A stretch of DNA of 27,847 bases, from the IMG/VR virus record IMGVR_UViG_3300044615_000948, positions 1 to 27,847 of that record. One strand, given 5' to 3'. This DNA comes from a virus. A program made the position numbers and the translations under genes. Positions 9,060-26,851 of the stretch are shown piece after piece. The notes below the pieces were generated by a model, which had not been told where the DNA came from, searched no databases, and saw nothing but the letters and a program-made list of their open reading frames with translations. Positions within the stretch are counted from its first letter, which is position 1; every line of letters starts with the position of its first letter.

Positions 9060-9403
9060 GACGTAGTCTCCACGTTGCCGCGGGGCGTGTTCACGACGGC
9101 GAGTGCGAACATCCACACATCCTCTGCGTCGATGGTGATGAGCCATGCCTTGCCGTTGCGCCGATGGGCGACGTACGGCACGCTCCCCACGGGGGCCTCG
9201 GTCTTCGCCTGGTCGATCGCCGCGTGGATGTTCAACGCCTCGCGGCGCTTGACCTCGCAATGTGTGTGTTGCCATCCACCGATGACGTCGGGCGAGTCCG
9301 CACCGCCCCGGTTCTGTTGCCCGCGGCGTGCGTCGAGCCCGCGGTTGCGGAGCCACTCGGCCCATTCGCGCTCGCCGACCTTGCCTTTTTCGCGTGAGTT
9401 CAC
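9056..9403 (-). CDS. Holliday junction resolvase-like PD-(D/E)XK nuclease
   Basis: A 115-aa protein with the layout of Hjc-like and related phage resolvases: GKVGEREWAEWLRNRG near 7-22, ARRGQQNRGGADSPDVIG with PD at 38-39, and the EVK triad at 50-52. These supply the acidic and lysine residues of the PD-(D/E)XK metal site. The GTG at 9403 forms a GTGA overlap with the upstream stop. It would resolve four-way junctions or branched DNA made during phage replication and recombination. It is shorter than typical cellular resolvases but within the phage range. Confidence 0.72.
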   Translation of the reverse strand: MNSREKGKVGEREWAEWLRNRGLDARRGQQNRGGADSPDVIGGWQHTHCEVKRREALNIHAAIDQAKTEAPVGSVPYVAHRRNGKAWLITIDAEDVWMFALAVVNTPRGNVETTS

Positions 9404-9738
9404 ATCGCCTCCAGTTCGTGTTCGATTCGCTCCCATCGCGTGCCGGTCAGCCCGTCCGGGTTCTCGCGACGCATCTTGAGAAGCCACTTGCACACGGCGT
9501 TTCGATCTGCGTTCGACACGTGCGGGCCGATCTGTTTCGTGTCGAGTCCGCACCACTTGGCCAGCAGGTACGCCGACACGGAGCGTGCGATCCGCGTTGC
9601 CCTGGTGCGATGACCACCACGCAGCAGAGCCTTCGTCGGCTCGTCAATCTCGGCAACGACCAGTTTGAGCACCGTGACAACGTCGCGACGCATGTACTCG
9701 GGGACGGGTTGCGGCCAGTCTGATTTCACGAACGGCAT
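9400..9738 (-). CDS. Helix-turn-helix protein, possibly DnaA domain IV-like
   Basis: A 112-aa helical protein. Residues about 44-92 (RTRATRIARSVSAYLLAKWC, then GLDTKQIGPHVSNADRNAVC, then KWLLKM) follow the pattern basic helix, hydrophobic helix, short HTH seen in DnaA domain IV and related initiator proteins, though the diagnostic D-H-(S/T)-T is replaced by NADRNAV. The ATG at 9738 follows a 30-base gap after the C5 methyltransferase gene and has GGAG upstream. Its neighbour, separated only by the resolvase gene, looks like a clearer DnaA-IV protein. It may be a divergent paralogue or an ordinary phage HTH regulator. Confidence 0.45.
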   Translation of the reverse strand: MPFVKSDWPQPVPEYMRRDVVTVLKLVVAEIDEPTKALLRGGHRTRATRIARSVSAYLLAKWCGLDTKQIGPHVSNADRNAVCKWLLKMRRENPDGLTGTRWERIEHELEAM

Positions 9739-9768
9739 GGGTGCTCCAGGGTGATGATGGGTGTTGAG

Positions 9769-10770
9769 TCACAGGTCACACTCCCTTATCACTTCCTCAA
9801 CGGCTCGGAGGAACCTCGCCGCGACTTGCGGCACGATGGCGTTGCCGTAACCGCGCAGTCGCACCACGCGGGCGGGTACCCCATCAACCAGCGGGCTAAT
9901 GCTGGGTTCAATACGCCGCGTTTTCCCGTCGGCGCATGGGACGAGGATGTAGTCATCCCAAGGGCCGTCGTTTGCAGGTCCACGCCCCCCGATCCCCGCT
10001 TGTCCTTGCTCTCCCGAGTCTCGGGTCCGCGCTCGGAGAGATTGGGCGTCGGGTAGCCCGCGAGCAACTGCGCCACCTCGCCCAGAATCGACCGCCCGTG
10101 ACCCTTGGCAATCTGTGCGGCCCGGCTCGGCCGATCGAGATTGACACCGGGGCCTGCGTCCCGCACTGTTGCGGTCGGGTAGCCCGCCAACAACGCATGC
10201 TCGCTCAACTGCCCGCGGCGTTGCCCGGGCTGCGCTGAGCCCTTGTGGTCGCTGGCCTGGGGCGATCCCCACCCACCACAACCGCTGTCGAATGTGCGGT
10301 GCGCCGACGCTCGCAGCGCACAAATCGGCGGCGACGACGACATATCCCATCGCTTCCAGGTCAGTGCGTACTCCGGCGAGCCATCCACGTCCAGCAGCAG
10401 ACGCAACCTGCTCTCCAACAACAACTGAGGGCCGACGCTCGGCGATGAGCCGCGCGAACTCGGGCCACAGGTGCCGCTCGTCAGCGATGCCCCGTCGCTT
10501 CCCGGCGTCGCTGAACGGCTGGCACGGGCATGATCCTGACCAAATAGTAAGCCCTGAACTTCCATTCCAGATACCTCCTGCCATCTTGAATGCGAGCGGC
10601 CAGCCGCCAATGCCCGCGAAGAAATGAACCTGTTCGTACTCGGCCACGTCGGCCAGGGTGAAGGACTCGATGCCAGCCGTGCGAACATCAGCGGCGGGAA
10701 GGTGCCCGGCCTTGACAAGTTCGCTGAGCCACGCACACACCTTGTCGTCGTGGTCGGTGTAGAGGTTCAC
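9769..10770 (-). CDS. dcm: DNA C5-cytosine methyltransferase
   Basis: A 333-aa C5-MTase. Motif I is FAGIGG at 51-56; catalytic motif IV is PCQPFS with nucleophile Cys83; motif VI reads GEQV at 119-122 where ENV is usual; motif VIII is the RQRLWWV region near 161-167; and the motif X-like RGYGNAIVPQVAARF lies near the C-terminus. The start is the GTG at 10770, overlapping the upstream stop as GTGA. The much longer upstream open frame would overlap other genes and is not used. It methylates cytosine at C5, probably to evade host restriction. No restriction enzyme is adjacent. The whole distal part is also open in another frame (see 9789-10736). Confidence 0.85.
   Translation of the reverse strand: MNLYTDHDDKVCAWLSELVKAGHLPAADVRTAGIESFTLADVAEYEQVHFFAGIGGWPLAFKMAGGIWNGSSGLTIWSGSCPCQPFSDAGKRRGIADERHLWPEFARLIAERRPSVVVGEQVASAAGRGWLAGVRTDLEAMGYVVVAADLCAASVGAPHIRQRLWWVGIAPGQRPQGLSAARATPRAVERACVVGGLPDRNSAGRRPRCQSRSAEPGRTDCQGSRAVDSGRGGAVARGLPDAQSLRARTRDSGEQGQAGIGGRGPANDGPWDDYILVPCADGKTRRIEPSISPLVDGVPARVVRLRGYGNAIVPQVAARFLRAVEEVIRECDL
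9789..10736 (-). other. Long overlapping ORF in +1 frame of the C5 methyltransferase
   Basis: A 315-codon open frame lies almost wholly inside the methyltransferase gene, one base shifted on the same strand. It is not random-looking: LTWKRWDMSSSPPICALRAS, LLAGYPT and LAGYPTPN repeats, and GVLNPALARWLMGYPPAWC near the end. From memory, proteins with the LNPxxxRWLMGxPxxWxxC ending are frequent in phage and metagenome sets beside or within dcm-like genes. It could be a real overprinted protein or a shadow kept open by codon use and family conservation. No start with a good ribosome site was identified. Confidence 0.35.
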
Positions 10771-11006
10771 GCAATCACTCCAAACAGATTCGGTTCCTCC
10801 ACCCTCTCCACCCTCGGCCTCCGCCTCGCCAGCGTGTCCGCCGCGTCGCCGTACGCTCGGGCTGCCGCCTCTACCCCGTCCTCGCCCCACCCGTAGCCGC
10901 CGATCCAGTCGGGCTTGCCCTTGAGCGTGTAGCCGATGATGACGTGAACGCCCATGCGTCCGTCGTGGTGGGGGCTGGGGAGGGTCTGGAGGAGGGAGAT
11001 GGTCAC
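10767..11006 (-). CDS. Small unknown protein
   Basis: A 79-aa protein starting at the GTG at 11006 (GTGA overlap) with GGAG upstream; its stop overlaps the GTG of the methyltransferase gene. The middle reads GYTLKGKPDWIGGYGWGEDG, a glycine/aromatic-rich stretch followed by an alanine/arginine helix. No family is recognised. Its fixed place in a chain of 4-base overlaps argues that it is translated. Confidence 0.55.
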   Translation of the reverse strand: MTISLLQTLPSPHHDGRMGVHVIIGYTLKGKPDWIGGYGWGEDGVEAAARAYGDAADTLARRRPRVERVEEPNLFGVIA

Positions 11007-11287
11007 GCCGCACCACCATCTGTTGAGAAGGGCAACGGCGCGGGAATCTCACGCTTGCGTCGAACCGGTCCCTTTGCCAGTGCCTCTAAAAACAGCTTGG
11101 CCCGCATCTTCCTGATGTGTTCGGCCGCGGCCGTCAGCGGGCTCGCGGCCTCGGCGATCGCGGGCTTGATCTTGGCGATGATGCGATCCGCCGCGGGAAT
11201 GTCACGCTTGAGCAGAAGCTCGACGACCAGCTCCGCTTCCTTCACGGTCAACCGTCGAGACCGACGCAGATCGACGAACCTTTTCAC
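11003..11287 (-). CDS. Small basic helical protein, unknown
   Basis: A 94-aa protein, mostly predicted helix, rich in Lys/Arg and Ala (KRFVDLRRSRRLTVKEAELV at the start, basic KGPVRRKRE near the end). The start is the GTG at 11287, sharing GTGA with the upstream gene. The basic N-terminus could bind nucleic acid, but no known fold is recognised. Context is the chain of small early genes. Confidence 0.55.
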   Translation of the reverse strand: MKRFVDLRRSRRLTVKEAELVVELLLKRDIPAADRIIAKIKPAIAEAASPLTAAAEHIRKMRAKLFLEALAKGPVRRKREIPAPLPFSTDGGAA

Positions 11288-11694
11288 GCTCCACCACCGG
11301 CCTTCGCGGCGGCTTGGGCGGCTTCGGGGGTGGAGTAGCACTCGTCCATCGCAAAGTACTTAGACAGCATTCCGCTGTTCTCATTGAACGCGACGACTTG
11401 CCTACCAAACCGAATAACAACTTCGCCTGTGCAGCCCATCGCTGGAACCCAAACCCGATCCGCCACGGCTGGCAACGTGCCGTCTTTGGTGAGAAGTCCT
11501 TGACTTCGGGCGGCGGTCTTGATGCTGTTAAGCCGCCCGAGTTCGTCCACCATCGCGTTGACTCGCTGCCAGTCGCTCAGCCCGTCAATCGGCGACGTTT
11601 CGGTGCCGTATTCACCAGCACACATACACACGCCGCTTGGGCATTGAATCGCGTGCTTGCCGGGACCGACCTTGACGATCCTGTACTTGTTCAC
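11284..11694 (-). CDS. Hypothetical early protein
   Basis: A 136-aa protein starting at the GTG at 11694 (GTGA overlap). The N-terminus has CPSGVCMC, a possible metal site with three cysteines in seven residues, and another Cys in AMGCTGEVV. The stretch VWVPAMGCTGEVVIRFGRQV suggests a small beta-barrel. The C-terminus is alanine-rich. Family not recognised. Tight overlaps on both sides support expression with the early operon. Confidence 0.55.
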   Translation of the reverse strand: MNKYRIVKVGPGKHAIQCPSGVCMCAGEYGTETSPIDGLSDWQRVNAMVDELGRLNSIKTAARSQGLLTKDGTLPAVADRVWVPAMGCTGEVVIRFGRQVVAFNENSGMLSKYFAMDECYSTPEAAQAAAKAGGGA

Positions 11695-12101
11695 TGCTTT
11701 GTCTCCTTCGCGGCGGCTTCGATCGCGGAGCGTGCGGTGGGGTTGGCGTTCACTTCATCGCTGGCGCAGTTGATCCACTCATTACCGTTGACGTGGCGGC
11801 ACATTGCGTACTCGGCCAGGTTCTTCGCCAACACCCGCACGGCCTCGCGGAGTTCGGCGTTCTGCTTCTGGATGCTCGCGGTGTCAAGATGATCCTCAAG
11901 CTTCCGCTCGCCGAGTTCCCGCTCCAATTCCCTCACCCGCTTGTTCGCGGCCTCAAGCGGGGCGGCGAGGGCGGCTGCAACGCCGTCGTCCCACCAGATG
12001 AGCGGACCTTCGGCGGTGTCACGGCCAGAGAGTCGCCTGTCGTCACAGGCATCCACGAGCGTGTCGTTCATGTGCGTCCATTCAGGTGTCCGCTCGCTCA
12101 T
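11691..12101 (-). CDS. Coiled-coil hypothetical protein
   Basis: A 136-aa protein. A long coiled-coil-like helix spans about residues 40-90 (ANKRVRELERELGERKLEDH, then QKQNAELREAVRVLAKNL). The ATG at 12101 overlaps the upstream stop as ATGA with AAGGAGG 7 bases before it, an excellent ribosome site. That is why the in-frame extension to 12212 is not used. Function unknown; probably oligomeric. Confidence 0.6.
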   Translation of the reverse strand: MSERTPEWTHMNDTLVDACDDRRLSGRDTAEGPLIWWDDGVAAALAAPLEAANKRVRELERELGERKLEDHLDTASIQKQNAELREAVRVLAKNLAEYAMCRHVNGNEWINCASDEVNANPTARSAIEAAAKETKQ

Positions 12102-12511
12102 TGCCCGGCCTCCTTCAGTTTCGCCAGCATCCAGAGCAGGTAGCGGTCGCGGATCTCGTCGTCGGTGCGTGGACACGACACGACAACAGCCTCGTTTTTG
12201 CGTGCCACCCACGACTCCTCAAACCCAACAGTGCCGTCGTCGTAGTACTTGATGAGTCCGGAAGTTTTCCACTCCCACCCCTCCAGCAACGCGGACGCGG
12301 CACCGTCGAGGGTCGCGGGGAAGGGGTGGCTCAAGCCACTCTGCTTGTTCTTTTTTCCGTGCTTATCCAATCTTCGGCAGTGCCCGTAATCGAAGAACTG
12401 CAAGGCCCATGTCATTTCAGACAGCGGCTTGCCGAGTTCGGCCAACGCCTTGCGTCGATAGTGCCAGTCGCGGATTGCGTCGAGGGGCATGGTGTGGGGG
12501 TCGATGGTCAT
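12098..12511 (-). CDS. Hypothetical early protein
   Basis: A 137-aa protein starting at the ATG at 12511, which overlaps the stop of the 40-aa membrane gene as ATGA and has AAGGA upstream. It is rich in aromatic residues (WHYRRKA, FFDYGHCRRL, WEWKTSGLIKYYDDGTVGFE). The family is not recognised. The ATG 45 bases further upstream in frame is rejected because it would overlap the membrane gene. Confidence 0.55.
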   Translation of the reverse strand: MTIDPHTMPLDAIRDWHYRRKALAELGKPLSEMTWALQFFDYGHCRRLDKHGKKNKQSGLSHPFPATLDGAASALLEGWEWKTSGLIKYYDDGTVGFEESWVARKNEAVVVSCPRTDDEIRDRYLLWMLAKLKEAGQ

Positions 12512-12630
12512 TCTCGGTCCTTGTTCCTCTTGTGCAGCCACTCGTTGACGGCCCACTCAACTTTGACGAACACCCACACCCCCACGATGCAACTCACAAC
12601 CCACACAATCCCAATCACCCACGGGCTCAC
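12508..12630 (-). CDS. 40-aa single-pass membrane protein
   Basis: A short gene of 41 codons including stop. It starts at the GTG at 12630, whose GTGA overlaps the upstream stop, and ends with a TGA that overlaps the ATG of the next gene (ATGA). AAGGGAG precedes the start. The protein is a single hydrophobic helix (WVIGIVWVVSCIVGVWVFV) followed by a charged, basic tail (NEWLHKRNKDRE). Both 4-base overlaps fit the operon's pattern exactly, which is the main evidence that it is real. It could be a small membrane regulator or a holin- or superinfection-exclusion-type protein; none is proven. Confidence 0.62.
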   Translation of the reverse strand: MSPWVIGIVWVVSCIVGVWVFVKVEWAVNEWLHKRNKDRE

Positions 12631-13025
12631 GCCTTCACTCCCTTGCGTTTCGCCCTGAGTACCTGGCGGTGGTGGTTATCCGCACGACCGAACGCCTCGG
12701 TGAGGTTGTCGTGATCCGTCTCCGACTCGTCAGGCTTGATGAGCACGTACAACTTCGCACGCTTGACCACGCGGTAGTGCAGCACCTCGCCGCGAACCTT
12801 CGCCGTCGCGGACCAGACCAACCGTCCGCGTGCTTCTTCCATCGCAAACTTCAGCATCATCGACTCCAGAGAAAAGTGCCCGTCTTTCCGGGCTGTCACA
12901 GGTTTGCTCACGTTTCCGCCCGGGCCTGTCGGTGCGTTTAGAAAGGTCGCCGTTGGCGATGAGCCCGGCGACCGCGACACGAGCCTGCGCGACTCATTCG
13001 TCAGCGTGCGCCGGGCGGCTTCCAT
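12627..13025 (-). CDS. Hypothetical basic early protein
   Basis: Up to 132 aa. The ATG at 13025 gives a 25-base overlap with the DUF669 gene and has no clear ribosome site. A GTG at 12911, giving 94 aa, is an alternative start. The C-terminal part is charged and basic (KRAKLYVLIKPDESETDHDN, then HHRQVLRAKRKGVKA). Family not recognised. The stop overlaps the GTG of the small membrane gene. The reading frame is well supported by that overlap, but the N-terminus is not. Confidence 0.5.
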   Translation of the reverse strand: MEAARRTLTNESRRLVSRSPGSSPTATFLNAPTGPGGNVSKPVTARKDGHFSLESMMLKFAMEEARGRLVWSATAKVRGEVLHYRVVKRAKLYVLIKPDESETDHDNLTEAFGRADNHHRQVLRAKRKGVKA

Positions 13026-13486
13026 GCCGCTGCGGCCGGGGGCGCACCCGTGGGCTTGAACGGCGGGGGTGCCGTCGGTGCCGTGCTCGTCAGCGTGCCG
13101 CGAGCCTTGAAGTCGGCGATGTCGTTGCTGAAGTCGCCGGGCTTGTCGTCGCGGGGCTTGACCTTCACGGCGATGTCGAGGCTCGCGTTCAGCAGGTCTT
13201 GCGGGCCGCTGGGCTTGAGCACCTTGACGGCGTGGCAGATGGCCGACAACTTGCCCTGTGCGATCCGCACGGCCTCGGCGCTGGGGTTCTCGAGCGCGAG
13301 GTACGCGAACACCTTGCGGCCGTCCTGTCCACCGCCGGTGATCGTGAACTCGATCTTGAGGTTCTTCCCCGTGCCGGCCTTGTTGGGGGCCTCCTCCGCG
13401 GCGGTGATGACGGCGGTGTAGTTGCCGGGGGGGATCGGTGACGAGCCCGTGTCAGGGGCGACTTGCGTTGCGTCGAACCAGGTCAT
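13001..13486 (-). CDS. DUF669-family phage recombination-associated protein
   Basis: A 161-aa protein. The pattern IPPGNYTAVITAAEEAPNKA, then GTGKNLKIEFTITGG, GRKVFAYLALENPSAEAVRI and GKLSAICHAVKV is typical of DUF669, a phage family usually next to RecA-like ATPases or annealing proteins and thought to bind DNA. The C-terminal ~35 residues are Pro/Ala-rich and ungapped, like an acidic-less linker tail. The ATG at 13486 overlaps the ATPase stop as ATGA. It likely works with the ATPase and the Gp157-like protein in phage recombination/replication. Confidence 0.8.
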   Translation of the reverse strand: MTWFDATQVAPDTGSSPIPPGNYTAVITAAEEAPNKAGTGKNLKIEFTITGGGQDGRKVFAYLALENPSAEAVRIAQGKLSAICHAVKVLKPSGPQDLLNASLDIAVKVKPRDDKPGDFSNDIADFKARGTLTSTAPTAPPPFKPTGAPPAAAAWKPPGAR

Positions 13487-14214
13487 GTGTTACTCCAGAA
13501 TGAGGCGAGAGCACCCTCGATTGACGCCCACGACAGGGGCATCTCAACAGGCATCGAGTAGCGGTTCTTCGCACAGATGAGGTTTGTTCCGGTGGTGATG
13601 AGCACACGCTCACCGTTTCGGCTTGTCGCGTAGAACACGCCGTCAGCCCACTCGCGGAAGATGGGCAGGATGTACGAGGGCAGGTCGGGCGCGGCCATCT
13701 TGACCGTCGCCCCCTCGGGCGTGAGCAACTTCTCATGCCCCGCGTGGGCCAGCAGCACGATCGCCAGGCCCCGCTCGTGGATCGCGTTGAGCATCGGCAG
13801 CACGTTCCGCTGGACAATGTTCACGACGATCTCACGGGCCTTGAAGTATCCGCCGTGCGACGAGCCCATCGTGCTGAGCATCGGGTCGCGCGACGGCTTC
13901 TTGGGGTCGGGCGGGTCGCGGTCGAGCACGTCCCGCTCGATCGCGGCGACGAGCCAATCGAGGGTGTCGATCGCCAGCACGCTCACGCCCTCGGGGGGCT
14001 CGGTGGCGATGCGGTCGAGCCACGTTGCCATCTCCGCCCACGTGCGGAGCGTCGGCGTGCGCTTCAGGCCCTTGATGCTGCTCGCGCCGCCTTCGCAGTC
14101 GATGAGGAACGCGCCGGCCTGAGCCGCGAGCGTGGTCTTGCCGACGCCGGGCTCGCCGTAGACGAGAAGTTTCGGGGGGCTGGGGTTCGTCGTGTCGATG
14201 ATCTGGTCGTACAT
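13483..14214 (-). CDS. RecA-like P-loop ATPase (AAA_24 / Sak4-like)
   Basis: A 243-aa phage nucleotide-binding protein. Walker A is GEPGVGKTT at 20-28 and Walker B is VLAIDT at 79-84; a central AHAGHEK region follows. Size and layout match AAA_24 proteins, some of which (Sak4 type) are single-strand annealing or RecA-like recombinases. The start chosen is the ATG at 14214 because AAAGGAGG ends 4 bases upstream; a GTG at 14235, in GTGA overlap with the Gp157-like gene, is the alternative. With DUF669 downstream this forms a familiar phage recombination pair. Confidence 0.8.
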   Translation of the reverse strand: MYDQIIDTTNPSPPKLLVYGEPGVGKTTLAAQAGAFLIDCEGGASSIKGLKRTPTLRTWAEMATWLDRIATEPPEGVSVLAIDTLDWLVAAIERDVLDRDPPDPKKPSRDPMLSTMGSSHGGYFKAREIVVNIVQRNVLPMLNAIHERGLAIVLLAHAGHEKLLTPEGATVKMAAPDLPSYILPIFREWADGVFYATSRNGERVLITTGTNLICAKNRYSMPVEMPLSWASIEGALASFWSNT

Positions 14215-14231
14215 CTGTCCTCCTTTGGTTG

Positions 14232-14765
14232 TCACTGAACTCGCAGGTGCTCACCGGCCTCGGTCAACACCACACCCTCGATCGCCACACCGGCGACGAG
14301 TGCGGTGCGAATGGCGACGCGATCGGCCTCAACCGTGACGCGGCGGTACTTCTCGGGCAGCGACTCGGGCGCGACCATGATGTCGAGGCCCGGCTGCGGG
14401 TTGCGTTGACGGCGGAACACAAACAGCGGCGTGTCGATCCGCTTCTTGTCCTGTCGCTGCATGTAGTCGAGCACGCGCCCCCTGAGGCGATCGACGCCAT
14501 TCTCGCGGACCTTGGCGAGTTGTGCGAGCCGCTGTGCCTCTTCCTTCGCGGTGACCGCGTCACCGGCAAGCCGCTTCAGCACGACGCCGATCCGCTGGAG
14601 CACGTCCTGCTCGTTGGCTTCCATCTCGCCGATCCATTCGTTGATCGTCGCCTCAACCTGGGCGTCGGTGACGTCGCCACCAATCTCACAGAGCAGGTCG
14701 TGCAGCGTCTGCTGCTCTTGCGTGAGGGCGAACAGGTTGATTCGGGGCTTGGTTTCGGATGACAT
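14232..14765 (-). CDS. Siphovirus Gp157-like protein
   Basis: A 177-aa protein with a long charged N-terminal coiled coil (about 15-110) and a beta-rich C-terminus. The sequence KKRIDTPLFVFRRQRNPQPG, then PESLPEKYRR, is the recognisable Gp157 signature (KIKTPxFxxxxxKNP...IPEEY). In streptococcal phages the family was linked to phage resistance when over-expressed; its molecular role is unclear. Next to an ATPase and DUF669 it probably belongs to the recombination module. The ATG at 14765 has GGAG 7 bases upstream, embedded in the repeated GAGTGTCTGA motif. Confidence 0.75.
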   Translation of the reverse strand: MSSETKPRINLFALTQEQQTLHDLLCEIGGDVTDAQVEATINEWIGEMEANEQDVLQRIGVVLKRLAGDAVTAKEEAQRLAQLAKVRENGVDRLRGRVLDYMQRQDKKRIDTPLFVFRRQRNPQPGLDIMVAPESLPEKYRRVTVEADRVAIRTALVAGVAIEGVVLTEAGEHLRVQ

Positions 14766-14774
14766 TCAGACACT
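14753..14774 (-). repeat. Copy A of dispersed TGTCTGA motif
   Basis: The minus strand reads AGTGTCTGAATGTCATCCGA, continuing AA. The ATG is the start codon of the Gp157-like gene and the preceding GGAG is its ribosome site. It is the copy most like the one at 16085; the two agree in TGTCTGA, TCA and CCGAAA. Confidence 0.5.
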
Positions 14775-14844
14775 CCAAAGATGTGCGTGGTTCGGGAAAC
14801 CCGGGCGAGGCTGTCGAGCCGTCACCCGGGGGAGAGAGAGATGT

Positions 14845-15543
14845 TCAGGTGGTCATCGCGTCGATCTTCGCGCGGAGTTCGGCGTTCGCGGCGTGGATCT
14901 CGGCGAGCTTGGCGGCGAGCGATTCGAGGGTGGGGGCGTCGGGCTCGGCGGACCTCATGTGCATTCTGACGATGTGCGGGCGGTGATACTCACGCTTGTG
15001 GGCACGCTCCCTGTCCCACTTGAGGTGCTGAATCGCCTGCTCACGGGTCGGGAACGCCATTGCGCCAGGCCCCCATTCGCCGTCGATCCAGTTCTTCCTC
15101 ATGTAGAGCAACACCCACACACTCTCAGGCATTGGCGGCACTTCGCACTTCGACTCGGGCACGGGCTCAGCGACGACGGGGGCGACGGTAACGGGTTCGG
15201 TGTTCATTGGTGGTCTTGTCCTTGAAACTGGCGGCGGGCCTGGTGGTGGTCGGTTCGGATTGACGTTGATGCAGCGGGATCCGCGGGGGTCTGGCGGTGC
15301 GGGTGGCGGGACAGGCTCGCGGCCACGAAAAACGCGATTGAAGATGCGTTCTCTGACTTCGGCCTCATCAAATCCAGCCTTTATCCGAATGGTCAGGAAG
15401 TTCGCCTTCACCCTGCCTACGCCGCAAAGCCTGATCCACCGACCTTTGCGGCTGGCCTCGACGAGTGGTCGCCAGCGTCGGATGCGGCGGACTCGTATGG
15501 CCGAGTTGATTCGGCCCACGATGAGTCGCCACGCTCGGCTCAT
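14845..15543 (-). CDS. Hypothetical protein, basic N-terminus and proline linker
   Basis: Up to 232 aa. The N-terminal ~70 residues are strongly basic (RAWRLIVGRINSAIRVRRIR). They are followed by a Pro-rich linker (about 73-112) and a C-terminal half with WVLLYMRKNWIDGEWGPGAM and a terminal helix. The ATG at 15543 shares ATGA with the upstream stop. An internal ATG at 15207 (MNTEPV) could start a separate ~120-aa protein, so two products or a two-domain protein are possible. No family is recognised. Confidence 0.5.
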   Translation of the reverse strand: MSRAWRLIVGRINSAIRVRRIRRWRPLVEASRKGRWIRLCGVGRVKANFLTIRIKAGFDEAEVRERIFNRVFRGREPVPPPAPPDPRGSRCINVNPNRPPPGPPPVSRTRPPMNTEPVTVAPVVAEPVPESKCEVPPMPESVWVLLYMRKNWIDGEWGPGAMAFPTREQAIQHLKWDRERAHKREYHRPHIVRMHMRSAEPDAPTLESLAAKLAEIHAANAELRAKIDAMTT

Positions 15544-17112: not shown

Positions 17113-17313
17113 GGGCCAGCCTCCTGTCGCGGTCTGATTCGGATGGTAGGGCAGCCGCGTTTCAGCCCCAGTCCGGTCGGGTAGTTAGGCCGACGGGTTG
17201 AGTGTAGCAATCGTCCGTGGTGCGTCAAGGGGCTTCGGCGTACTATTCCGCCGTCCAGACGTCACAGACGGAACCGTCGCGTGACATTCTCGGGCCTCGG
17301 ACAGATCCCGGTG
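17113..17313. other. Non-coding stretch between int and the tRNA fragment
   Basis: I see no gene here. It should contain the integrase promoter and, if attP is at 17314-17361, integrase arm-binding sites. A small inverted repeat (CCGTC...GACGG around 17251-17272) is the only structure noted. No convincing -35/-10 pair was found. Confidence 0.4.
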
Positions 17314-17361
17314 TTCAGATTCCCAAGCTGAATGTCGTCGGTTCGATTCCGATCGCCCGCT
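17314..17361 (+). other. 3' part of tRNA-Gly(CCC), probable attP core
   Basis: The sequence holds an anticodon arm with the 7-base loop TTCCCAA (anticodon CCC), a perfect T arm (GTCGG, loop TTCGATT, CCGAT) and the acceptor 3' strand CGCCCGC plus discriminator T. This is very close to the 3' half of bacterial tRNA-Gly(CCC). The matching 5' half (GCGGGCG and D arm) is absent upstream; the base at 17319 (A) breaks the anticodon stem, hinting where tRNA identity begins. CCA is not encoded. A 3' tRNA fragment beside an integrase is the classic attP (or attR) signature, restoring the host tRNA on integration. Confidence 0.85.
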
Positions 17362-17364
17362 CTC

Positions 17365-17393
17365 GCAAAACCCCTTTCCAGCAGGGGTTTTGC
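17365..17393 (+). terminator. Hairpin after tRNA-Gly fragment
   Basis: A perfect 11-bp stem, GCAAAACCCCT and AGGGGTTTTGC, with a 7-base loop, four bases after the tRNA end. The A-run/T-run flanks of the CCCC/GGGG core make it a likely Rho-independent, bidirectional terminator. It may be part of the region shared with the host tRNA locus. Confidence 0.75.
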
Positions 17394-17438: not shown

Positions 17439-17483
17439 CGCCGACCAAAGCCCCGGGCTAGTTACCCGGGGCTCGGCGTTTTT
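17439..17483 (+). terminator. Second strong hairpin with T-run
   Basis: The inner stem AGCCCCGGG/CCCGGGGCT (17449-17457 with 17465-17473) and the outer CGCCG/CGGCG are followed by TTTTT at 17479-17483. It is a strong plus-strand terminator, insulating the attP side from the membrane-protein gene downstream. Confidence 0.78.
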
Positions 17484-17509
17484 GGAGTCAACGGGGGCGG
17501 ACGATTTCT

Positions 17510-17521
17510 AGGGGTACCCCT
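17510..17521. promoter_or_regulatory. 12-bp palindrome, possible operator
   Basis: AGGGGTACCCCT is a perfect palindrome about 105 bases before the start of the plus-strand membrane gene. It could be a protein-binding site. An 8-bp palindrome (AGCATGCT) lies at 17559-17566. No clear promoter boxes were recognised beside either. Confidence 0.25.
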
Positions 17522-18279: not shown

Positions 18280-18694
18280 AGACTCGCCACCACAGATCAA
18301 CGTCGAGCGCCTGCCGCGCCCGCCGCTTCAGGCGGACGATGCACCCGCACCCGGGCACGCGAAAGAAGCCGCGGAGGGTCATCCCGCCGCGCGAGAGCAA
18401 CCAGAGTCGCGACCACATGGGCGAGTGGTGCGTCACTACCGCGTGACCGGCGACCGTCACCGTGACCAGCCCGTATCGGTTCGGGTGTCGGCCACGCGGG
18501 CAATGGGCACCCGTGAGGATGTGACGATCGGACCTGTGCCCGGTGATCGCACAGACGCCGTCGTCGTGCCGCTTGCCGCGTCGCTCAAAGTCCGGGCACG
18601 TCGCACACATGATCGCCCGCGTGACGACGAGCGGATGCACCACGCCACGCGAGCACGCGACACCGCCCTCAACCTTGCCGCAGCGACACGTCAC
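18242..18694 (-). CDS. Cysteine-rich protein at end of tail operon
   Basis: A 150-aa protein with nine cysteines, several in pairs (CRC at 3-5, CATC at 30-33, CGC at 116-118), so a zinc-binding fold is likely. The C-terminal part (RLWLLSRGGMTLRGFFRVPG) is basic and hydrophobic. The ATG at 18694 overlaps the stop of the preceding cysteine-rich gene as ATGA. It is the last gene of the structural block and overlaps the convergent bPH2 gene by 38 bases. A host-recognition accessory role is possible but unproven. Confidence 0.55.
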   Translation of the reverse strand: MTCRCGKVEGGVACSRGVVHPLVVTRAIMCATCPDFERRGKRHDDGVCAITGHRSDRHILTGAHCPRGRHPNRYGLVTVTVAGHAVVTHHSPMWSRLWLLSRGGMTLRGFFRVPGCGCIVRLKRRARQALDVDLWWRVFTRAGGGVQSRG

Positions 18695-19485
18695 GGAATG
18701 AACCCCCCGCCCGTCGTCGGGTCACAGAGTCGCGGCGTGCGGCACGTGTCGGGCGAATACGTGATCTGTGCGAAGGCTTGCGACTCGGAGTAGTTGTACG
18801 ATCCATCGGTGTAGTCGATGTTTTTTTGCGCGGACCAATAACTTCGCCGGCAGTCGCTGTACCCGGTCTCGGTTCTCGTGCTTGACCCCCCGCTAAAACT
18901 TTCCGCGTCCGACCTGCTATAGGCTCCGTGGCAGAGCCGCGACGGCGTGCCGGTGCCGCCGGTGAAAAGCACCGCGAACTCCGCCGGCACGGGGCACTCG
19001 TTCTCGGGCAGGTCCAGCGGCGTTGTGACATCCAGCACCGTCGTAGCGCCTTCGGTCCGCACCAGCCGATACGTGGCCGTGGTCGTGTCGCTCACGCCCG
19101 GAACGATCGTCCGCACGCCGCTCCACGTGTACGTTTCAACAAACAGCGGGCTGCCGATCACGTTGATCTCGGTGCGCAGCGACCCCGCGACATTGATCGT
19201 GATCGTGTCCGGGCTCTCCGGCGAACAGCATCGAATCGACAGGCCGTCGGAACGCGGATCGCACGGTGCTCGGCAGTCGCTGCACGCGACGCATCCGCTC
19301 GGGCATTCTCCAGAGGCTGGCGCGGGCTCAGGGTTCGGGTCCATCCACTCGGGCTCGTCACCGGGCGTCCACGGTGGGAACGGCGACGACGGACAGCATT
19401 CTTCAGACGGCGGGCACTCGGGCGTAAGCAACCGCCCCGACGAGTCCACCAGCGTCTCGCCCGTGCTCTTCTGGTAGACCGTCAC
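18691..19485 (-). CDS. Cysteine-rich probable tail-tip protein
   Basis: A 264-aa protein starting at the GTG at 19485, which shares GTGA with the upstream stop and has GGAG 8 bases before it; the long upstream extension is rejected. The first ~100 residues hold ten of about 15 cysteines (for example PPSEECCPSSPF and GECPSGCVACSDCRAPC) in a Pro-rich setting. The rest is Thr/Ser-rich beta-type sequence. No family recognised. Position after two tail-tip-like genes suggests a virion surface protein stabilised by disulfides or metal. Confidence 0.55.
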   Translation of the reverse strand: MTVYQKSTGETLVDSSGRLLTPECPPSEECCPSSPFPPWTPGDEPEWMDPNPEPAPASGECPSGCVACSDCRAPCDPRSDGLSIRCCSPESPDTITINVAGSLRTEINVIGSPLFVETYTWSGVRTIVPGVSDTTTATYRLVRTEGATTVLDVTTPLDLPENECPVPAEFAVLFTGGTGTPSRLCHGAYSRSDAESFSGGSSTRTETGYSDCRRSYWSAQKNIDYTDGSYNYSESQAFAQITYSPDTCRTPRLCDPTTGGGFIP

Positions 19486-20693
19486 TCTGCGCACTCCGTC
19501 ACGTCGAGCCGCTCGCGGATGAGGGCGTACCAGGTCATCGCGACGTTGTCGGAGTCCGGCGCTCGCACAAGGATCACAGTCGAGCCCACGTCGGCGGCGA
19601 TGATCTTGCCCGTCTCCACAACGGGCGTACCCCAGTGCGGACGAACGCCGGTGATGGTCTGGTTGCGCCCATGCACCTTGACCGAGTACGTCACGCTCGA
19701 AGCCGTCACAAGCCCGCTGGCGCTCGCCGCGCTGATGCGGCCCGTGAGGATCTGCGGCGTGGGCTCGTCGAACACGAACAGCGTCCGCCCGATCGAGTCG
19801 AGTTCCGGCCACGCCCGAACGATCGTGCCCTCGGGGATCGGTTCCCAAGGTTCCGTCGCCGCGTGCGTCGTGTCGCTGTGCAACGCCTCCGAGAGATTGA
19901 CCGCGCGGTAGGCGGGGAAGTCGGTCGAGTTGATGCCGCCGGGCTTGACAATCCACGTGCCGATTGTGCCGCTCGCCGGTGTCGCGTCGAGCCATGCCTC
20001 CGCGAACTCGTAGACCCGGCGATACGGTCGCGTCTCGGCCGGGTCCGTCTCCGGCTTGGGCCACTCGGCGGACGTGCCGATGCGAACCGTCAGGGCGTGC
20101 TGAGGCGGGGGCGCGAGATGCACCCACGCCCAGAGCGGGAGCGGGGCCTCGGGCGGGCCGTGCCCCGTGCCCGCGTCGCCGCTGAAGCCCGACTCACTGG
20201 TGACGACCGCGAACTCGCCAACGTGCCCGGAGTGCAGCACGCGAGAACCCGCTCGCGTGGTCGCGCGTGTGTCGCCCTCGCGGTACTTGAGCATCTGGAC
20301 CGGGGCGTAGCCGTAGACGATCACCTTGCCGATCTTGCCAGCGCCGATCGGTTCCGCGACGACACACGCCTTGCCCTGCAACGCGGCCGTCGGCTCGCCG
20401 ATGCTGAGCACCGGGCGATTCTGAAACAGGTTCGACTTCGCGACACTGATCGGGCTGCCCGAGCCCTCACGCACGGGAGCCCAGCCCGTGCCGTTGATGC
20501 ACATGATGTGCCCGACCTTGGCGAGCGTGCCGGTCGAGTTCTTCGCGAACACCATCCGCGGTGACTCGAACGCGCCGAACGGGTCTGCGCCGCTCGCCGC
20601 GCCGCGTGCGGCGCGTGTGGCTTCCTGCCAGCCGTTGAGCGTGTCGGCGTCGAGTCGGTACGCGGTGCCCTTGCGGAAGAACGTGCTGCTCAT
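19482..20693 (-). CDS. Large structural protein, probable tail tip/baseplate
   Basis: A 403-aa protein, no family recognised. Mostly beta-type sequence (KIGKVIVYGYAPVQMLK, SVTYSVKVHGRNQTITG, VGSTVILVRAPDSDNVAM) with no membrane segment or enzyme motif. The ATG at 20693 overlaps the previous stop as ATGA, and its stop overlaps the GTG of the next gene. In the standard order after tape measure, genes here encode distal tail, baseplate hub or receptor-binding proteins, so a tail-tip role is inferred from order alone. Confidence 0.55.
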   Translation of the reverse strand: MSSTFFRKGTAYRLDADTLNGWQEATRAARGAASGADPFGAFESPRMVFAKNSTGTLAKVGHIMCINGTGWAPVREGSGSPISVAKSNLFQNRPVLSIGEPTAALQGKACVVAEPIGAGKIGKVIVYGYAPVQMLKYREGDTRATTRAGSRVLHSGHVGEFAVVTSESGFSGDAGTGHGPPEAPLPLWAWVHLAPPPQHALTVRIGTSAEWPKPETDPAETRPYRRVYEFAEAWLDATPASGTIGTWIVKPGGINSTDFPAYRAVNLSEALHSDTTHAATEPWEPIPEGTIVRAWPELDSIGRTLFVFDEPTPQILTGRISAASASGLVTASSVTYSVKVHGRNQTITGVRPHWGTPVVETGKIIAADVGSTVILVRAPDSDNVAMTWYALIRERLDVTECAE

Positions 20694-21505
20694 CCGGGGA
20701 GCCCCAGAGAAGAGAAGGAAACGCGGCGATGCACCCGCTCAACGTGTGCGAGGTTCGGCACGACCTTGATGTACTGGCCCGTGCTGTCGGGCTCGCGGAC
20801 GTACGACACCCAGAGGTAGTCCCATCCCTCCTTGCTTGGCACGGTGATGACGCCGCCGACGTCGATGCTGGTGCGGTTCTCACTGACCGCGAATCGGCTG
20901 GTGATCTCGTAGTCGAGTTTGTCGGCCCGGTATTGAAACTGCGAACCGAGGTAGAGCAACTCGCCGGCGGCGAATCCCCGGAACGTGTCGGAGTTGACCG
21001 AGCCGGTCGCGCGGGCGAGCGTGCGAAAGTACGACGTCGTCGCCGTCGATGCGAGCACGTACCCCGTCTCGACAAACTGCAACGATCCCGTCTTGACCGC
21101 GACACCCTCGGGCTCGCCGTCATCGTTGACGTTGATCGCACCGAGGTATGGCGTCGAAACCGATCCGCCCGTGCCCCACGTACCGATGTGTGAGATGGCC
21201 TGCGTGAGCGTCACCTCTTCGCCGGTCGTATCGCCACTCAGGAAGAACGTGCCCGTTTCGGGCTGCACCGACAGTGATCCGCCACTGTCCGATGCCCACG
21301 TCACGCGGGCCTCGTACAGGCTCGGGGCGATGTGTTGGATGATCGGAGCACCACGCCTCAGCGAGCCGATTGTCGTCGGAGCCGTCGAAAGCACCGCCGT
21401 GATGATGTCCGCCTCAACGTCGGAGCCGGTCACTTGATAGACACGGTCTGAACGCTCAGGCCCGAACGTCGCGCCGTCTCCGAGTTCTGTCACGACGATT
21501 GGCAT
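20690..21505 (-). CDS. Probable distal tail/tail-tip protein
   Basis: A 271-aa protein directly after the tape measure gene, six bases from its stop. It is beta-rich with no recognised motif (SLYEARVTWASDSGGSLSVQ, LQFVETGYVLAS, YEITSRFAVSENRTSIDVGG). The Dit (distal tail) protein usually occupies this position in siphoviruses, but I see no sequence signature for it. The start is the ATG at 21505 with GGTGAG upstream. Confidence 0.5.
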   Translation of the reverse strand: MPIVVTELGDGATFGPERSDRVYQVTGSDVEADIITAVLSTAPTTIGSLRRGAPIIQHIAPSLYEARVTWASDSGGSLSVQPETGTFFLSGDTTGEEVTLTQAISHIGTWGTGGSVSTPYLGAINVNDDGEPEGVAVKTGSLQFVETGYVLASTATTSYFRTLARATGSVNSDTFRGFAAGELLYLGSQFQYRADKLDYEITSRFAVSENRTSIDVGGVITVPSKEGWDYLWVSYVREPDSTGQYIKVVPNLAHVERVHRRVSFSSLGLPG

Positions 21506-21511
21506 GCTGAC

Positions 21512-23332
21512 TCACCCCGCGATGATGTAACCGGGCTCGGTGTCGTCCACGCTCCGCTGAATCCGTTCGGCCACCTTGGCGATGCGCTCGAGAAGTTGTG
21601 CGGTCGGACCACCGCGAAGGCTCGCGAGTGCCGCGTCGGACGTCGCGAACGTGCCGCGTGAGCCCGCGGGGCCAAGGTTGGCGAAGACTTCTTCAATGGC
21701 TTGATCGGCGGCACGCGCCGCGGGGATTGCCGGCGACGTTGCACGCGATGGGGCGAACGGGTTGGACCCGCCGTTCTCGTAGAACGCCGCGAACGCATCG
21801 GCCTGAGCCTTGGCGAGCCGCTCCTGCGCCTTGGCGAGGTTCGTCTCCGCGTCGACGAGTGAGGGCGAGCGGTTGCGGTCGATCGCGTCGAACTGCCGAG
21901 CAAGGTCGGCGTCGGCACGCTGGACGATTGCCGACGGGCTGTCCGGTGTGCGGCGGTTCGCCGATTGCTGCAACGTCGTCGCGAGACTGCGAACGGAACC
22001 GTCGGCGATGCCGATCGCCGCGAGTCCGTCGGCAACAAGTTCAAGCCCCGCAGCGAACGTCTCCATCAGCGCCGAGATGACGCCGCTGATCTCGTTCATC
22101 GCGAGGTTGCCAGTCAGTTTGAGTGTGTTCCAGAGGTAGGCCCACACCTTCGCAAGCCCGCCCATCAGCGAATCCCACACGCCGAGAATGCCAACCGACG
22201 CCCGGCGGAACTGGATCTCAACCGCGGCCAATCCGACCTCTGCGGCGAGTGCCATGTCGCCACCCGACAGGGCCTGATTGATCGACTCCAGCACGCCCGA
22301 CACCCATGTGAAGGCGCTGCCGAATGCGTCACCGATCGCACCCGCGACCGTGCCCAGCGTGCCCGTGAAGTACAGCACCGCCAGCGCCGCCGCGGTGATG
22401 CCGCCGACGATGAGGAACACCGGGCTGGTCAACAGCCCGACCGCGATCGCCGCGACCTTGGCGGAGATCGCCACTCCAATCAGCCCCGCACCCAAAGCCG
22501 CCACGGCGCTGGCGGTTGCGCCGACGGCGAGCACAAGGGCGGGGTTCTGTGAGATGAACCGCCCGACCTGCACGATGAGCGGGGTGATCGCGTTGAGCGT
22601 CATCGTCAACGCCGGCGCGAACGCCTCGCCGATCTTCTGTGTCGCGCGGGCGGTCACCGCCGACAACTCGTCGAGCCGGTCGGCCAGTTGTGCGCCGCCC
22701 TTGGCGCTGGCCGTGGTCATCGTCAGCCCGAGTTCGCGTGCCCGGGCTCGCATCTCGGCGAGCCCCTTGGAACCGTTGGCGAGCAACGGGATGAGGTTCG
22801 CACCCGAGCGACCGAAGATGTTCATCGCCGCCGACGTCCGCTGGGCGGGGTCGGAGATGCCCGCGATGCCGTCGGCGATCGCCGCGAACTGGTCATCGGG
22901 GTTCATTCGCGACAGGCTCTCGACGCTCAGCCCGATCGCGTCAAGGGCACCGACCGCACCCGAGTCGCCGTTCGTCGCCGCTGCGATGACCCGTTGCATG
23001 CGGGCCACGCCGCCCGCCAGGTCATCCATCGAGATGTTCGCTTGCTTGACGCCGAGCGACAACTCCGACAAGGCCTCAACGCTCATGCCGCTCTTGGTCG
23101 CCATCGTGTCGAGGTCGTCCGCGGCGTTCGCGAACGCGCGAGACATCGCGGCGAGTCCGCCTGCAACGGCGGTGCCCATCGCCAGTGACGCGGCTCCGAC
23201 CTTGGCGACGCCCGACGCGAAAGCGTTCATCCGCTTTTCGGCCTCGCCCATGCCCTTTTTGAACTTGGCGTCCTTCACGCCGAGTTCGACGAACGCGCGA
23301 CCGGCGCGAATGGCTCCAGAGGAAACGCTCAC
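21512..23332 (-). CDS. Tail tape measure protein
   Basis: A 606-aa tape measure, which sets tail length and enters the host membrane on DNA ejection. The N-terminus (AFVELGVKDAKFKKGMGEAE, SMDDLAGGVARMQR, DPAQRTSAAMNIFGRSGANL) is typical of the phage TMP family. A hydrophobic block at about 250-320 (NPALVLAVGATASAVAALGA and following) contains likely membrane segments, and a helical, Arg-rich C-terminus follows. It is short for the family, predicting a short tail. The start is the GTG at 23332, in GTGA overlap with the preceding gene. Confidence 0.88.
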   Translation of the reverse strand: MSVSSGAIRAGRAFVELGVKDAKFKKGMGEAEKRMNAFASGVAKVGAASLAMGTAVAGGLAAMSRAFANAADDLDTMATKSGMSVEALSELSLGVKQANISMDDLAGGVARMQRVIAAATNGDSGAVGALDAIGLSVESLSRMNPDDQFAAIADGIAGISDPAQRTSAAMNIFGRSGANLIPLLANGSKGLAEMRARARELGLTMTTASAKGGAQLADRLDELSAVTARATQKIGEAFAPALTMTLNAITPLIVQVGRFISQNPALVLAVGATASAVAALGAGLIGVAISAKVAAIAVGLLTSPVFLIVGGITAAALAVLYFTGTLGTVAGAIGDAFGSAFTWVSGVLESINQALSGGDMALAAEVGLAAVEIQFRRASVGILGVWDSLMGGLAKVWAYLWNTLKLTGNLAMNEISGVISALMETFAAGLELVADGLAAIGIADGSVRSLATTLQQSANRRTPDSPSAIVQRADADLARQFDAIDRNRSPSLVDAETNLAKAQERLAKAQADAFAAFYENGGSNPFAPSRATSPAIPAARAADQAIEEVFANLGPAGSRGTFATSDAALASLRGGPTAQLLERIAKVAERIQRSVDDTEPGYIIAG

Positions 23333-23877
23333 AGGTCACCCCCTCGGTGCAGAATGTCGCGGAACTCCTGCGGAACCCTCTCGATGCCCGTGCGGAACGC
23401 GGGGGCCATGAATGGGCGCGGAGCGATGCGAGCCTGCTTTGTCTCTTTCACACGCACACGCTGGCCCGAGCGGTAGACGTTGCGGGTCGATGTGATGGTG
23501 ACGTTGCCGCCCCTCTCAAGCACCACCTGAGCCCCGCCGCTGCCGTTGAGCGGCGTGTTGCCCGCGACGCCGCTCTCCGTTCGCGTGTCGTACGCGGCGA
23601 ACAGAAGCCGCTTGAGCGGGCTCGAAGAACCGCGAACGGTGGGGGGTTGACCAGGTCGCGAGTATCGCGTCCGATCGACCCGCACATCCTGTCCACCCCG
23701 CTTGATCGTCACCACCCGGCGCGGACGCACGCGGAGTGATCGCTTGGCGATCGTCCGCGTCAGCAGCATCACACGTCGAATCGCACGCCCACGTTCCGTG
23801 GCCATGCGTTCGAGGATGCCGGCGCGGTCGAAAAAACCACGCTTCATCTGCTCAAGGGTGACGGTGGGGGTAATCAT
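23329..23877 (-). CDS. HK97 gp10-like tail/neck component (probable)
   Basis: A 182-aa, strongly basic protein. The ending ARIAPRPFMAPAF followed by a helix resembles the conserved RPFMxPA end of HK97 gp10-like minor tail/neck proteins; the remainder (KRSLRVRPRRVVTIKRGGQD) is positively charged. The ATG at 23877 overlaps the upstream stop as ATGA. Gp10-like genes normally lie before the tail tube gene, so its place just before tape measure is unusual. An alternative is an unrelated minor tail protein. Confidence 0.45.
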   Translation of the reverse strand: MITPTVTLEQMKRGFFDRAGILERMATERGRAIRRVMLLTRTIAKRSLRVRPRRVVTIKRGGQDVRVDRTRYSRPGQPPTVRGSSSPLKRLLFAAYDTRTESGVAGNTPLNGSGGAQVVLERGGNVTITSTRNVYRSGQRVRVKETKQARIAPRPFMAPAFRTGIERVPQEFRDILHRGGDL

Positions 23878-24206
23878 CGGCGTGAAGGCTCACCAGTCAA
23901 AGCGCCCTCAAGCCGCGACAGACGCTCGCGGGCGTCGGCGATGTTCGCTTGGATCTGAACGATGCCCGCCCGCGTCTCGGCGCGGAACTCGCGGAACTCC
24001 GACAGCAGCGTGTTGAGTTCCGGGGCCGGTGCCACCGCTGACGACGACTGGCCACCTCCGCCGGAAACGCTGAGCGTCAACCCCCCGCCAAGGGCAAAGG
24101 CACCGAGTGCAGTGGCGATCGGCTTCAGCCATTCGCGGGGCACGCGGATCGTCCCGGCATCATCGGCGCGAACCCTTCGCGTCGGGGTTGCATTCATGGT
24201 CGTCAT
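23874..24206 (-). CDS. One-pass membrane protein with coiled coil
   Basis: 110 aa. A basic N-terminus is followed by a hydrophobic segment at about 30-48 (IATALGAFALGGGLTLSV), a Gly/Ser hinge and a C-terminal coiled coil (FREFRAETRAGIVQIQANIA, DARERLSRLEGAL). The ATG at 24206 has AAGGAG upstream. It lies between a lipoprotein gene and tail genes. Together the two could be an inner-membrane/outer-membrane spanin-like pair, although the lipoprotein is larger than usual for that. The role is unassigned. Confidence 0.6.
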   Translation of the reverse strand: MTTMNATPTRRVRADDAGTIRVPREWLKPIATALGAFALGGGLTLSVSGGGGQSSSAVAPAPELNTLLSEFREFRAETRAGIVQIQANIADARERLSRLEGALTGEPSRR

Positions 24207-24236
24207 CGGTGCTCCTTCGGTGAGGGGAACGAATGG

Positions 24237-24824
24237 TCAGGGAACGCCAGAAGCGGTGCGGAGGGCCTGCCCGAGCAAGTCGCCGAGCGTCTTGCCGATC
24301 TCGCCTTGCGTCTCAAGTTGTGCCAGGACTCCAGCCCGCTGGTCGGCACTGAGCGCCGTCCAGTAGGTCACGAGCCGGTCGTAGGCTTCGTTCTGTGCGC
24401 GGATGGGCGTGCTCGCGTCGGTGCCGAACTGCACGTTCTTCATGGCGATCTTGAGGGTCGCCGGGTCGAAATCCACGCTCTCGGCCTTGGCCGTCACGTC
24501 CTTGCCGCTGCTGCTGTTGAGCGACACGCGGCCGTCGGGGTTGAGCAGCAGCGATACCTCGGTGCTCGCCTGACTGACCCGCCACGATCGGCTCTCACCG
24601 TCCGTGGTGACGGTGTAACTCGCTGGGCCGACGCCCCCGCTGCTGATCCGCTCGCCGACGTCGGCGGAACCGGCGTCGAACTGGAGCGTGTTCGGGCTCG
24701 CGTTGTCGATGCGGGTGCCCGCCCCGTCGATCGTCGCCCGCGTTCCCGGCGCGAGTTCAGTCTGGACGCACGCGCCCAGAACAGAGAAGACAAACACGGA
24801 CACTAGCAGGATCGTCAGTTTCAT
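24237..24824 (-). CDS. Phage-encoded lipoprotein
   Basis: 195 aa. The N-terminus MKLTILLVSVFVFSVLGAC is a lipoprotein signal peptide with lipobox LGAC, so Cys19 would be lipidated after cleavage. The mature part begins VQTELAPGTRATIDGAG, is beta-like to about residue 120 and ends in helices. The ATG at 24824 overlaps the stop of the tail chaperone -1 frame as ATGA behind AAGGGA. A lipoprotein in the middle of a tail operon is odd. Candidate roles are lysis (outer spanin), superinfection exclusion, or a membrane-anchored assembly factor; none is shown. Confidence 0.7.
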   Translation of the reverse strand: MKLTILLVSVFVFSVLGACVQTELAPGTRATIDGAGTRIDNASPNTLQFDAGSADVGERISSGGVGPASYTVTTDGESRSWRVSQASTEVSLLLNPDGRVSLNSSSGKDVTAKAESVDFDPATLKIAMKNVQFGTDASTPIRAQNEAYDRLVTYWTALSADQRAGVLAQLETQGEIGKTLGDLLGQALRTASGVP

Positions 24825-25099
24825 AGTGTTCCCTTCGTTGCGAGCGACACGAACTCGTGCATCGTCAGTTTCATGCGATTCGACTTCTTACCGGGCATGA
24901 AGTCTTCAGGCTTCGCCCGCTTGTTCCCGGCACACCGAGCGACCAGGGCCATAAGGCTGGCCGTGTGCCCCCACGCTGCCTCTCTCACGCCGTCGGCAAA
25001 CTCTCGGAGTTCCCAGAGTTGGAATGGACCGGGATCGACACCGGCCGCTCCGGCGAGTCGGTAGATGTGCCGCCAGGTATGAAGGTGCTCAGGGGCGCA
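24821..25099 (-). CDS. Tail assembly chaperone, -1 frame extension (T-like)
   Basis: An open frame lying -1 relative to the upstream chaperone gene. From about 25090 it encodes HLHTWRHIYRLAGAAGVDPG, LWELREFADGVREAAWGHTA, SLMALVARCAGNKR and a basic end. This matches the T-type region of siphovirus tail chaperones (Trp... DPxxF... L.E...A....AW.HTA). I found no usable start codon close before the domain, so it is probably made as a G-T fusion by programmed -1 frameshifting, as in lambda. The 5' limit given is only where the frames could join. The stop overlaps the lipoprotein ATG. Confidence 0.65.
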   Translation of the reverse strand, partial: CAPEHLHTWRHIYRLAGAAGVDPGPFQLWELREFADGVREAAWGHTASLMALVARCAGNKRAKPEDFMPGKKSNRMKLTMHEFVSLATKGTL

Positions 25100-25470
25100 G
25101 CGTCGATCTGATCCGCCAGCGCCTGCGCCTGAGCCGCGATCGTCTGATGGACCTGCTCCAGCTTCTTGCCCAGCGACCGGAGCAGCGGGCCGTGGGCCGT
25201 TGAGAAATCCGTGAGGGCTTCGATGAGTGCCCGCTGCGCCGCGACGACCGACTCCTCGGAGTCGAACATCTCGGCCCATTGCTCGGGGGTAATCGCCGAC
25301 GGCGCGATGATTGCGTACGTCGCCGTCACCGATCGCACGGGGTCTTCGGTCATCTTGAGGATGGCCGAAGGACCGCCGAGCAAGTCCACGCCCGCATCCC
25401 TCGCGCGTGCGAGAGATGCGACCGTGGCCCGAACCGTGAACGTCTGCCCCCCAAGCCTGAGCGTCGCCAT
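24985..25470 (-). CDS. Tail assembly chaperone (G-like)
   Basis: 161 aa. It starts at the ATG at 25470 with GGAG 9 bases upstream, immediately after the tail tube gene. The N-terminal region (TLRLGGQTFTVRATVASLAR, MTEDPVRSVTATYAIIAPSA, ITPEQWAEMF) resembles phage tail assembly chaperones that bind tape measure and recruit tube protein. The last ~45 residues overlap the T-like frame and lack helix signal (GGTSTDSPERPVSIPVHSN), as expected if that tail is only the non-frameshifted end. Confidence 0.65.
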   Translation of the reverse strand: MATLRLGGQTFTVRATVASLARARDAGVDLLGGPSAILKMTEDPVRSVTATYAIIAPSAITPEQWAEMFDSEESVVAAQRALIEALTDFSTAHGPLLRSLGKKLEQVHQTIAAQAQALADQIDAAPLSTFIPGGTSTDSPERPVSIPVHSNSGNSESLPTA

Positions 25471-25492
25471 TGTGCAGACTCCGTTGATTGTG

Positions 25493-25963
25493 TTAGGCGA
25501 TGACCGTCTGCCAGCCAGCGGTGAAGCCGGTCATCGTCGCGGGCTTCGCCTCGACGGCGATCGTTACGACATTGTTGAGCGGCTCGGACTGGCTGTATCC
25601 CGTGATGACAAAGCCCATGCGGAACCACTCGACGCCCGCCACGCCGCCGGATGCGACGGTGCCGCTCGTGCCGATCGCCCCAGTCGAGACGATCAACTCC
25701 ATCGGCGTGCCGGCGATGTGCGCGTCGCGGATCGTGGTGCGGTCGGTGTCGCTGGCGTTGAGCACCAGGTTGAAGGTCAGGCTCACATCGACCATGCCCG
25801 ATGCGTAGGTGCGGAACCGGCTCGCCCGGGTCGATGCCTCGGCCGCGTCCGCCGACGACGAGAACTCAACGTCCGCCACGTTGGCGATGACGTCGTAAAC
25901 CGGGCTCGCGCCGGTGCCAGTGTTGCGGGAGAGAACGTGGCTTTGGCCGATGCGTGCGGACAT
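25493..25963 (-). CDS. Major tail (tube) protein
   Basis: A 156-aa protein of the size and beta-rich character of siphovirus tail tube subunits: MVDVSLTFNLVLNASDTDRT, TIRDAHIAGTPMELIV, VEWFRMGFVITGYSQSEPLN and NVVTIAVEAKPA. The LNNVVT(I)xVExKPA ending is typical of tube proteins that form stacked hexamer rings. The ATG at 25963 has AGGAG 7 bases upstream. It lies between the tail-terminator-like and chaperone genes, the standard order. Strong by context plus pattern. Confidence 0.75.
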   Translation of the reverse strand: MSARIGQSHVLSRNTGTGASPVYDVIANVADVEFSSSADAAEASTRASRFRTYASGMVDVSLTFNLVLNASDTDRTTIRDAHIAGTPMELIVSTGAIGTSGTVASGGVAGVEWFRMGFVITGYSQSEPLNNVVTIAVEAKPATMTGFTAGWQTVIA

Positions 25964-25976
25964 GGAAATGCTCCTG

Positions 25977-26794: not shown

Positions 26795-26851
26795 TGGGAA
26801 ACCGCCTCCGCGACTCTCGTCACGGGCGGCGGCGGGCTGGGGCGGTGTGAC

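Follow-up and report, generated by a model that had tools for sequence, protein, structure and literature searches.

Temperate phages usually carry attP in mid-genome, beside the integrase gene, the anticodon loop is the standard crossover site, and the usual gene order of a free temperate phage is terminase–head–tail–attP–int–replication. Published cores derived from tRNA genes span 30–45 bp and include the 3' half of the tRNA, which is rebuilt upon integration (PMC10865867), and the anticodon stem-loop matches the core site of the integrase (PMC8371274). Boilgate has an attP of the mycobacteriophage type at tRNA-Lys, and in tRNA-dependent lysogeny a short core of ∼10 bp is accompanied by a phage-encoded complementing tRNA (both PMC10865867). 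Here we compare with these systems a 27 847-nt IMG/VR virus contig (hereafter the window, meaning the whole stretch that was analysed), in which half a tRNA gene lies beside an integrase gene. We consider it almost certain that this half gene is the attP of a tailed temperate phage that integrates at tRNA-Gly(CCC), and that the contig is the free form of this phage, be it virion, circularised or replicating DNA.

The segment between 17 320 and 17 361 on the plus strand, TTCCCAAGCTGAATGTCGTCGGTTCGATTCCGATCGCCCGCT, is exactly the 3' half of a tRNA-Gly(CCC) gene from the anticodon loop to the discriminator base: the anticodon loop TTCCCAA is followed by the 3' anticodon strand, a 5-nt variable loop, a T arm (GTCGG/TTCGATT/CCGAT), the 3' acceptor strand CGCCCGC and T as the discriminator. 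A generalised pattern of the tRNA-Gly(CCC) 3' half (up to three mismatches allowed; composed after the fragment sequence had been seen) has its single match in the window at this fragment, and none in 100 dinucleotide shuffles. The Rfam tRNA model (RF00005) gives a 5'-truncated match to the same positions (22.2 bits, E-value of 0.0055), which stays under the gathering score of 29 bits because the fragment is half a gene, as expected; other Rfam matches in the wider stretch (tRNA-Sec, Spi-1, Moco and P17) all lie far below their gathering scores. ARAGORN found no whole tRNA in the window, and the 5' half of a tRNA-Gly is absent. When a glycine 5' half is added at the anticodon stem, ARAGORN calls tRNA-Gly(ccc), and a chimera of the fragment with a tRNA-Gly 5' half aligns over its full length with an annotated Escherichia coli tRNA-Gly (82%). 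An earlier note on this DNA had claimed a tRNA-Gly(CCC) 3' fragment lacking its 5' half next to an intact integrase, and this is confirmed. We correct small details: the hairpin occupies 17 365–17 393, the tRNA portion starts at 17 320, and the preceding bases are TTCAGA. This hexamer resembles the left strand of the anticodon stem, yet it has A at tRNA position 31, so that TTCAG-N9-CTGAA forms a 5-bp palindrome enclosing the anticodon loop rather than a full tRNA stem. Within the common core of attP, the fragment is what the phage contributes, and it can restore the host tRNA.

The tyrosine integrase gene is intact, lies 207 bp from the fragment and encodes the full R/H/R/H/Y set of catalytic residues (PF00589), and its product is presumably active; the tRNA half is directed away from it. 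Phage DNA of one genome flanks the fragment on both sides, and no bacterial housekeeping genes were recognised next to it (Table 1). The clamp gene on the replication side encodes a DnaN-like protein with ∼150 additional N-terminal residues. In an annotated phage collection a DNA search found nothing, and the matches of the integrase there are distant only.

Table 1. Coordinates of features in the window
Feature	Position	Strand	Description
Replication/recombination side	77..15543	-	Gam-like 14232-14765, Sak4-like 13483-14235, methyltransferases, helicases
Primase	77-2344	-	replication side
Sliding clamp	2369-3898	-	replication side
Tyrosine integrase, 310 aa	16180..17112	-	PF00589; catalytic R156/H249/R252/H274/Y283 present
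13-nt inverted repeat, one arm	17205..17217	+	partner 17498..17510 (+); pair brackets core
Putative integrase core	17314..17332	+	palindrome TTCAG-ATTCCCAAG-CTGAA; precedent PMC8371274, PMC10865867
Hairpin	17365..17393	.	GCAAAACCCCT..AGGGGTTTTGC, perfect 11-bp arms, directly past tRNA end
Second, conventional intrinsic terminator	17449..17483	+	AGCCCCGGG-CTAGTTA-CCCGGGGCT CGGCGTTTTT
Cargo segment	17542..18286	+	membrane protein with bacterial PH domain (PF03703), 218 aa if start = 17626
Structural side	18691..27846	-	head/tail genes listed below and unidentified genes
Tape measure	21512-23332	-	structural side
Tail completion/neck protein	23329-23877	-	weak match
Head-tail joining	26414-26794	-	structural side
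Cement/decoration	26852-27595	-	structural side

The site would work in the usual way. The tyrosine integrase would recombine attP with the host tRNA-Gly(CCC) gene, binding the TTCAG-N9-CTGAA palindrome, and strands would be exchanged across the anticodon loop (17 320–17 326), the most likely site, which would provide a 7-bp overlap; the 13-nt inverted repeat (17 205–17 217 and 17 498–17 510) is a candidate arm-type integrase site. The phage-borne 3' half would then rebuild a working tRNA at one end of the prophage, probably together with the hairpin at 17 365–17 393, the probable phage-carried transcription terminator of the tRNA, and the displaced host 3' half would remain at the other end. 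Read from the rebuilt tRNA, the prophage would continue with the hairpin, the PH-domain gene and the structural genes, with int at the far end. The PH-domain membrane protein gene, beside attP and on the opposite strand, is likely a lysogenic cargo gene.

Besides the window, a single IMG/VR contig has the exact 42-mer, namely IMGVR_UViG_3300046007_006748, of 38.4 kb (the count may omit records very close to that of the window). This relative carries the identical fragment between the same flanks, with the tail and head modules to one side and int plus the recombination and replication genes to the other; its integrase is identical at 309 out of 310 residues, and it is collinear with most of the window. 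It differs in having no PH-domain cargo gene: 17 542–18 286 is missing, with ∼103 bp of unrelated DNA there instead. Positions 14 212–17 541 are 99.6% identical between the two contigs, whereas the adjoining segments are ∼75–97% identical, and this contrast suggests that the int–attP module was exchanged recently. The relative's further 10.5 kb encodes a capsid–protease fusion, a lambda-family portal and a GpA-type terminase, one each, so that in total it has one terminase, portal, capsid, tape measure and integrase, and this gene content yields the map terminase–head–tail–attP–int–replication. Both contigs end 76–283 bp beyond the primase gene, and contigs from another sample, 3300046010, share both end points of the 38.4-kb contig. 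A 15-nt motif, AGTTCCCTATGGGCT, occurs at both ends of the latter (L005 7–19 and L006 19162–19174), by the shared contig stops, and may be a packaging site or a repeat located between the primase and terminase genes. All this points to one genome unit of ∼38–39 kb, with its ends or an assembly-breaking repeat between primase and terminase. Both contigs are linear assemblies, a point against our explanation; we searched for two nearby copies of CCCATAGGGAACT (the motif at both ends of the 38.4-kb contig) and found none, and circularity is therefore not proven.

More distant relatives show the same gene order, and one of them is integrated. In 3300017666_000012 the primase, terminase and tape measure genes stand in one continuous run, so in this group the terminase follows the primase side within the same genome, and both halves of the window come from a single kind of genome. 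IMGVR_UViG_3300021604_000052 (G019) is a prophage in a tRNA-Gly(CCC) gene: next to int the tRNA is complete, the opposite end carries a 3' half, and between these ends the order is int, primase, terminase, tape measure, which is the map of the window cut at attP. Its terminase (52%), primase (54%) and tape measure (40%) are homologous to those of the window, and it shares the tRNA-Gly(CCC) target and an identical 18-nt core start. Joining its host halves yields a whole tRNA-Gly(ccc), whereas the joined phage halves yield none, as in the window; the host 5' half of G019 joined in silico to the 3' half of the window also gives tRNA-Gly(ccc) with ARAGORN, so that a host tRNA is rebuilt in silico from this 5' half. 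The phage and host 3' halves of G019 share their first 18 nt; five out of 42 positions differ between them, yet the T stem remains paired, and the half in the window has the same 18 nt and 38 of the 42 positions in common with the G019 host. This 18-nt identity among the 3' halves speaks for strand exchange in or close to the anticodon loop. G019 differs from the window in its 495-aa integrase (only 26% identical), in the reversed orientation of its fragment relative to int, and in carrying BrxL and other cargo; the first two differences count against our explanation. The homologue of BrxL (BREX defence) lies near the far end of G019 (L160 2496–4553). Two further contigs of the group deserve mention: IMGVR_UViG_3300048930_001424 (90 256 bp) has two terminases (and two tape measure relatives), at ∼15.7 and 74.9 kb, with one primase homologue, and is either a pair of adjacent, related phages or a joined assembly; in 3300021604_000003 a 31-bp direct repeat at the two boundaries resembles the 3' end of a different tRNA (L162 1–31 and L163 5906–5936), and the group probably uses several tRNA sites.

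A free phage accounts for the fragment, and tandem prophages are thus not needed. The earlier note had offered, as one alternative, two tandem prophages sharing an att site. The pair would derive from one phage or from related ones, and the window would span their junction; the central junction of such a pair would indeed have the sequence of attP and be indistinguishable from it in one contig. We rate this arrangement as very improbable: the 38.4-kb relative, with its single set of terminase, portal, capsid, tape measure and integrase genes, speaks against it, no module is duplicated in either contig, the same attP recurs there in DNA that is 99.6% identical, and a host junction for the window phage is seen in no contig. 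A 3' tRNA half also remains at one end of integrated prophages, as in G019, and the fragment might accordingly be read as the distal end (an attR-like remnant) of a single prophage with unrelated DNA beyond; as the phage genes on both flanks belong to one genome and are arranged alike in two contigs, there is hardly any chance that this is so.

Many large phages carry tRNA-Gly genes, and the terminal 28 nt of the fragment are common to whole tRNA-Gly(TCC) genes in five IMG/VR contigs, which would fit a phage-encoded tRNA gene that has decayed and plays no part in integration. Against this, the break falls at the anticodon loop and 207 bp from the integrase gene, the T-stem pairing is kept, the half is identical in two phage genomes, and neither the window nor its 38.4-kb relative has a tRNA gene; we regard decay as extremely unlikely. 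The lineage might also be mainly extrachromosomal (phage-plasmid-like) and rarely use its attP, or the int–attP cassette and the cargo slot might be a hot spot swapped between phages as a unit, at which the high identity of 14 212–17 541 hints, readings that we hold to be improbable, if less so than the preceding ones. The attP of a free temperate phage thus stays our explanation, and the earlier note's claims that the fragment marks attP, with phage DNA on both sides, and that the contig is, in the simplest reading, non-integrated phage DNA are borne out. Its surprise at an attP in mid-genome was misplaced, such a placement being usual for temperate phages.

The same note expected the fragment to reveal the host directly, which it does not: a search of 84 980 species genomes at near-exact stringency returned no match to the 42-nt fragment, exact or slightly relaxed, and no host attB, attL or attR for the window phage, nor any contig with a host junction, was found, which counts against our explanation. 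Given the five differences out of 42 between phage and host halves in G019, an exact host match need not exist, and an exact search can fail. The tRNA-Gly(TCC) genes with the same last 28 nt as the fragment are whole genes, four out of five standing among other tRNA genes, and we discounted them as shared tRNA-Gly sequence.

In viral contigs, half a tRNA gene normally marks a free temperate phage, and this settles the apparent oddity of the window; the attP is ordinary, of textbook anatomy, although the phage itself is uncharacterised. What is gained is the prediction that an uncharacterised group of phages integrates at tRNA-Gly(CCC), and a modest point on integrase exchange, as the window and G019 share one tRNA target, with integrases that differ greatly and sites in opposite orientation. 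Of the described systems, tRNA-dependent lysogeny was considered and rejected, since the half is 42 nt long here and there is no tRNA gene in the window or its 38.4-kb relative. The Boilgate-type attP is closer: both have a core of ∼40 bp over the 3' half of a tRNA, by the 5' end of a central tyrosine integrase gene, with the tRNA rebuilt upon integration and a few mismatches tolerated. The window differs from Boilgate in its tRNA, which is tRNA-Gly(CCC) instead of tRNA-Lys, in its host, and in that its integration is predicted from sequence.
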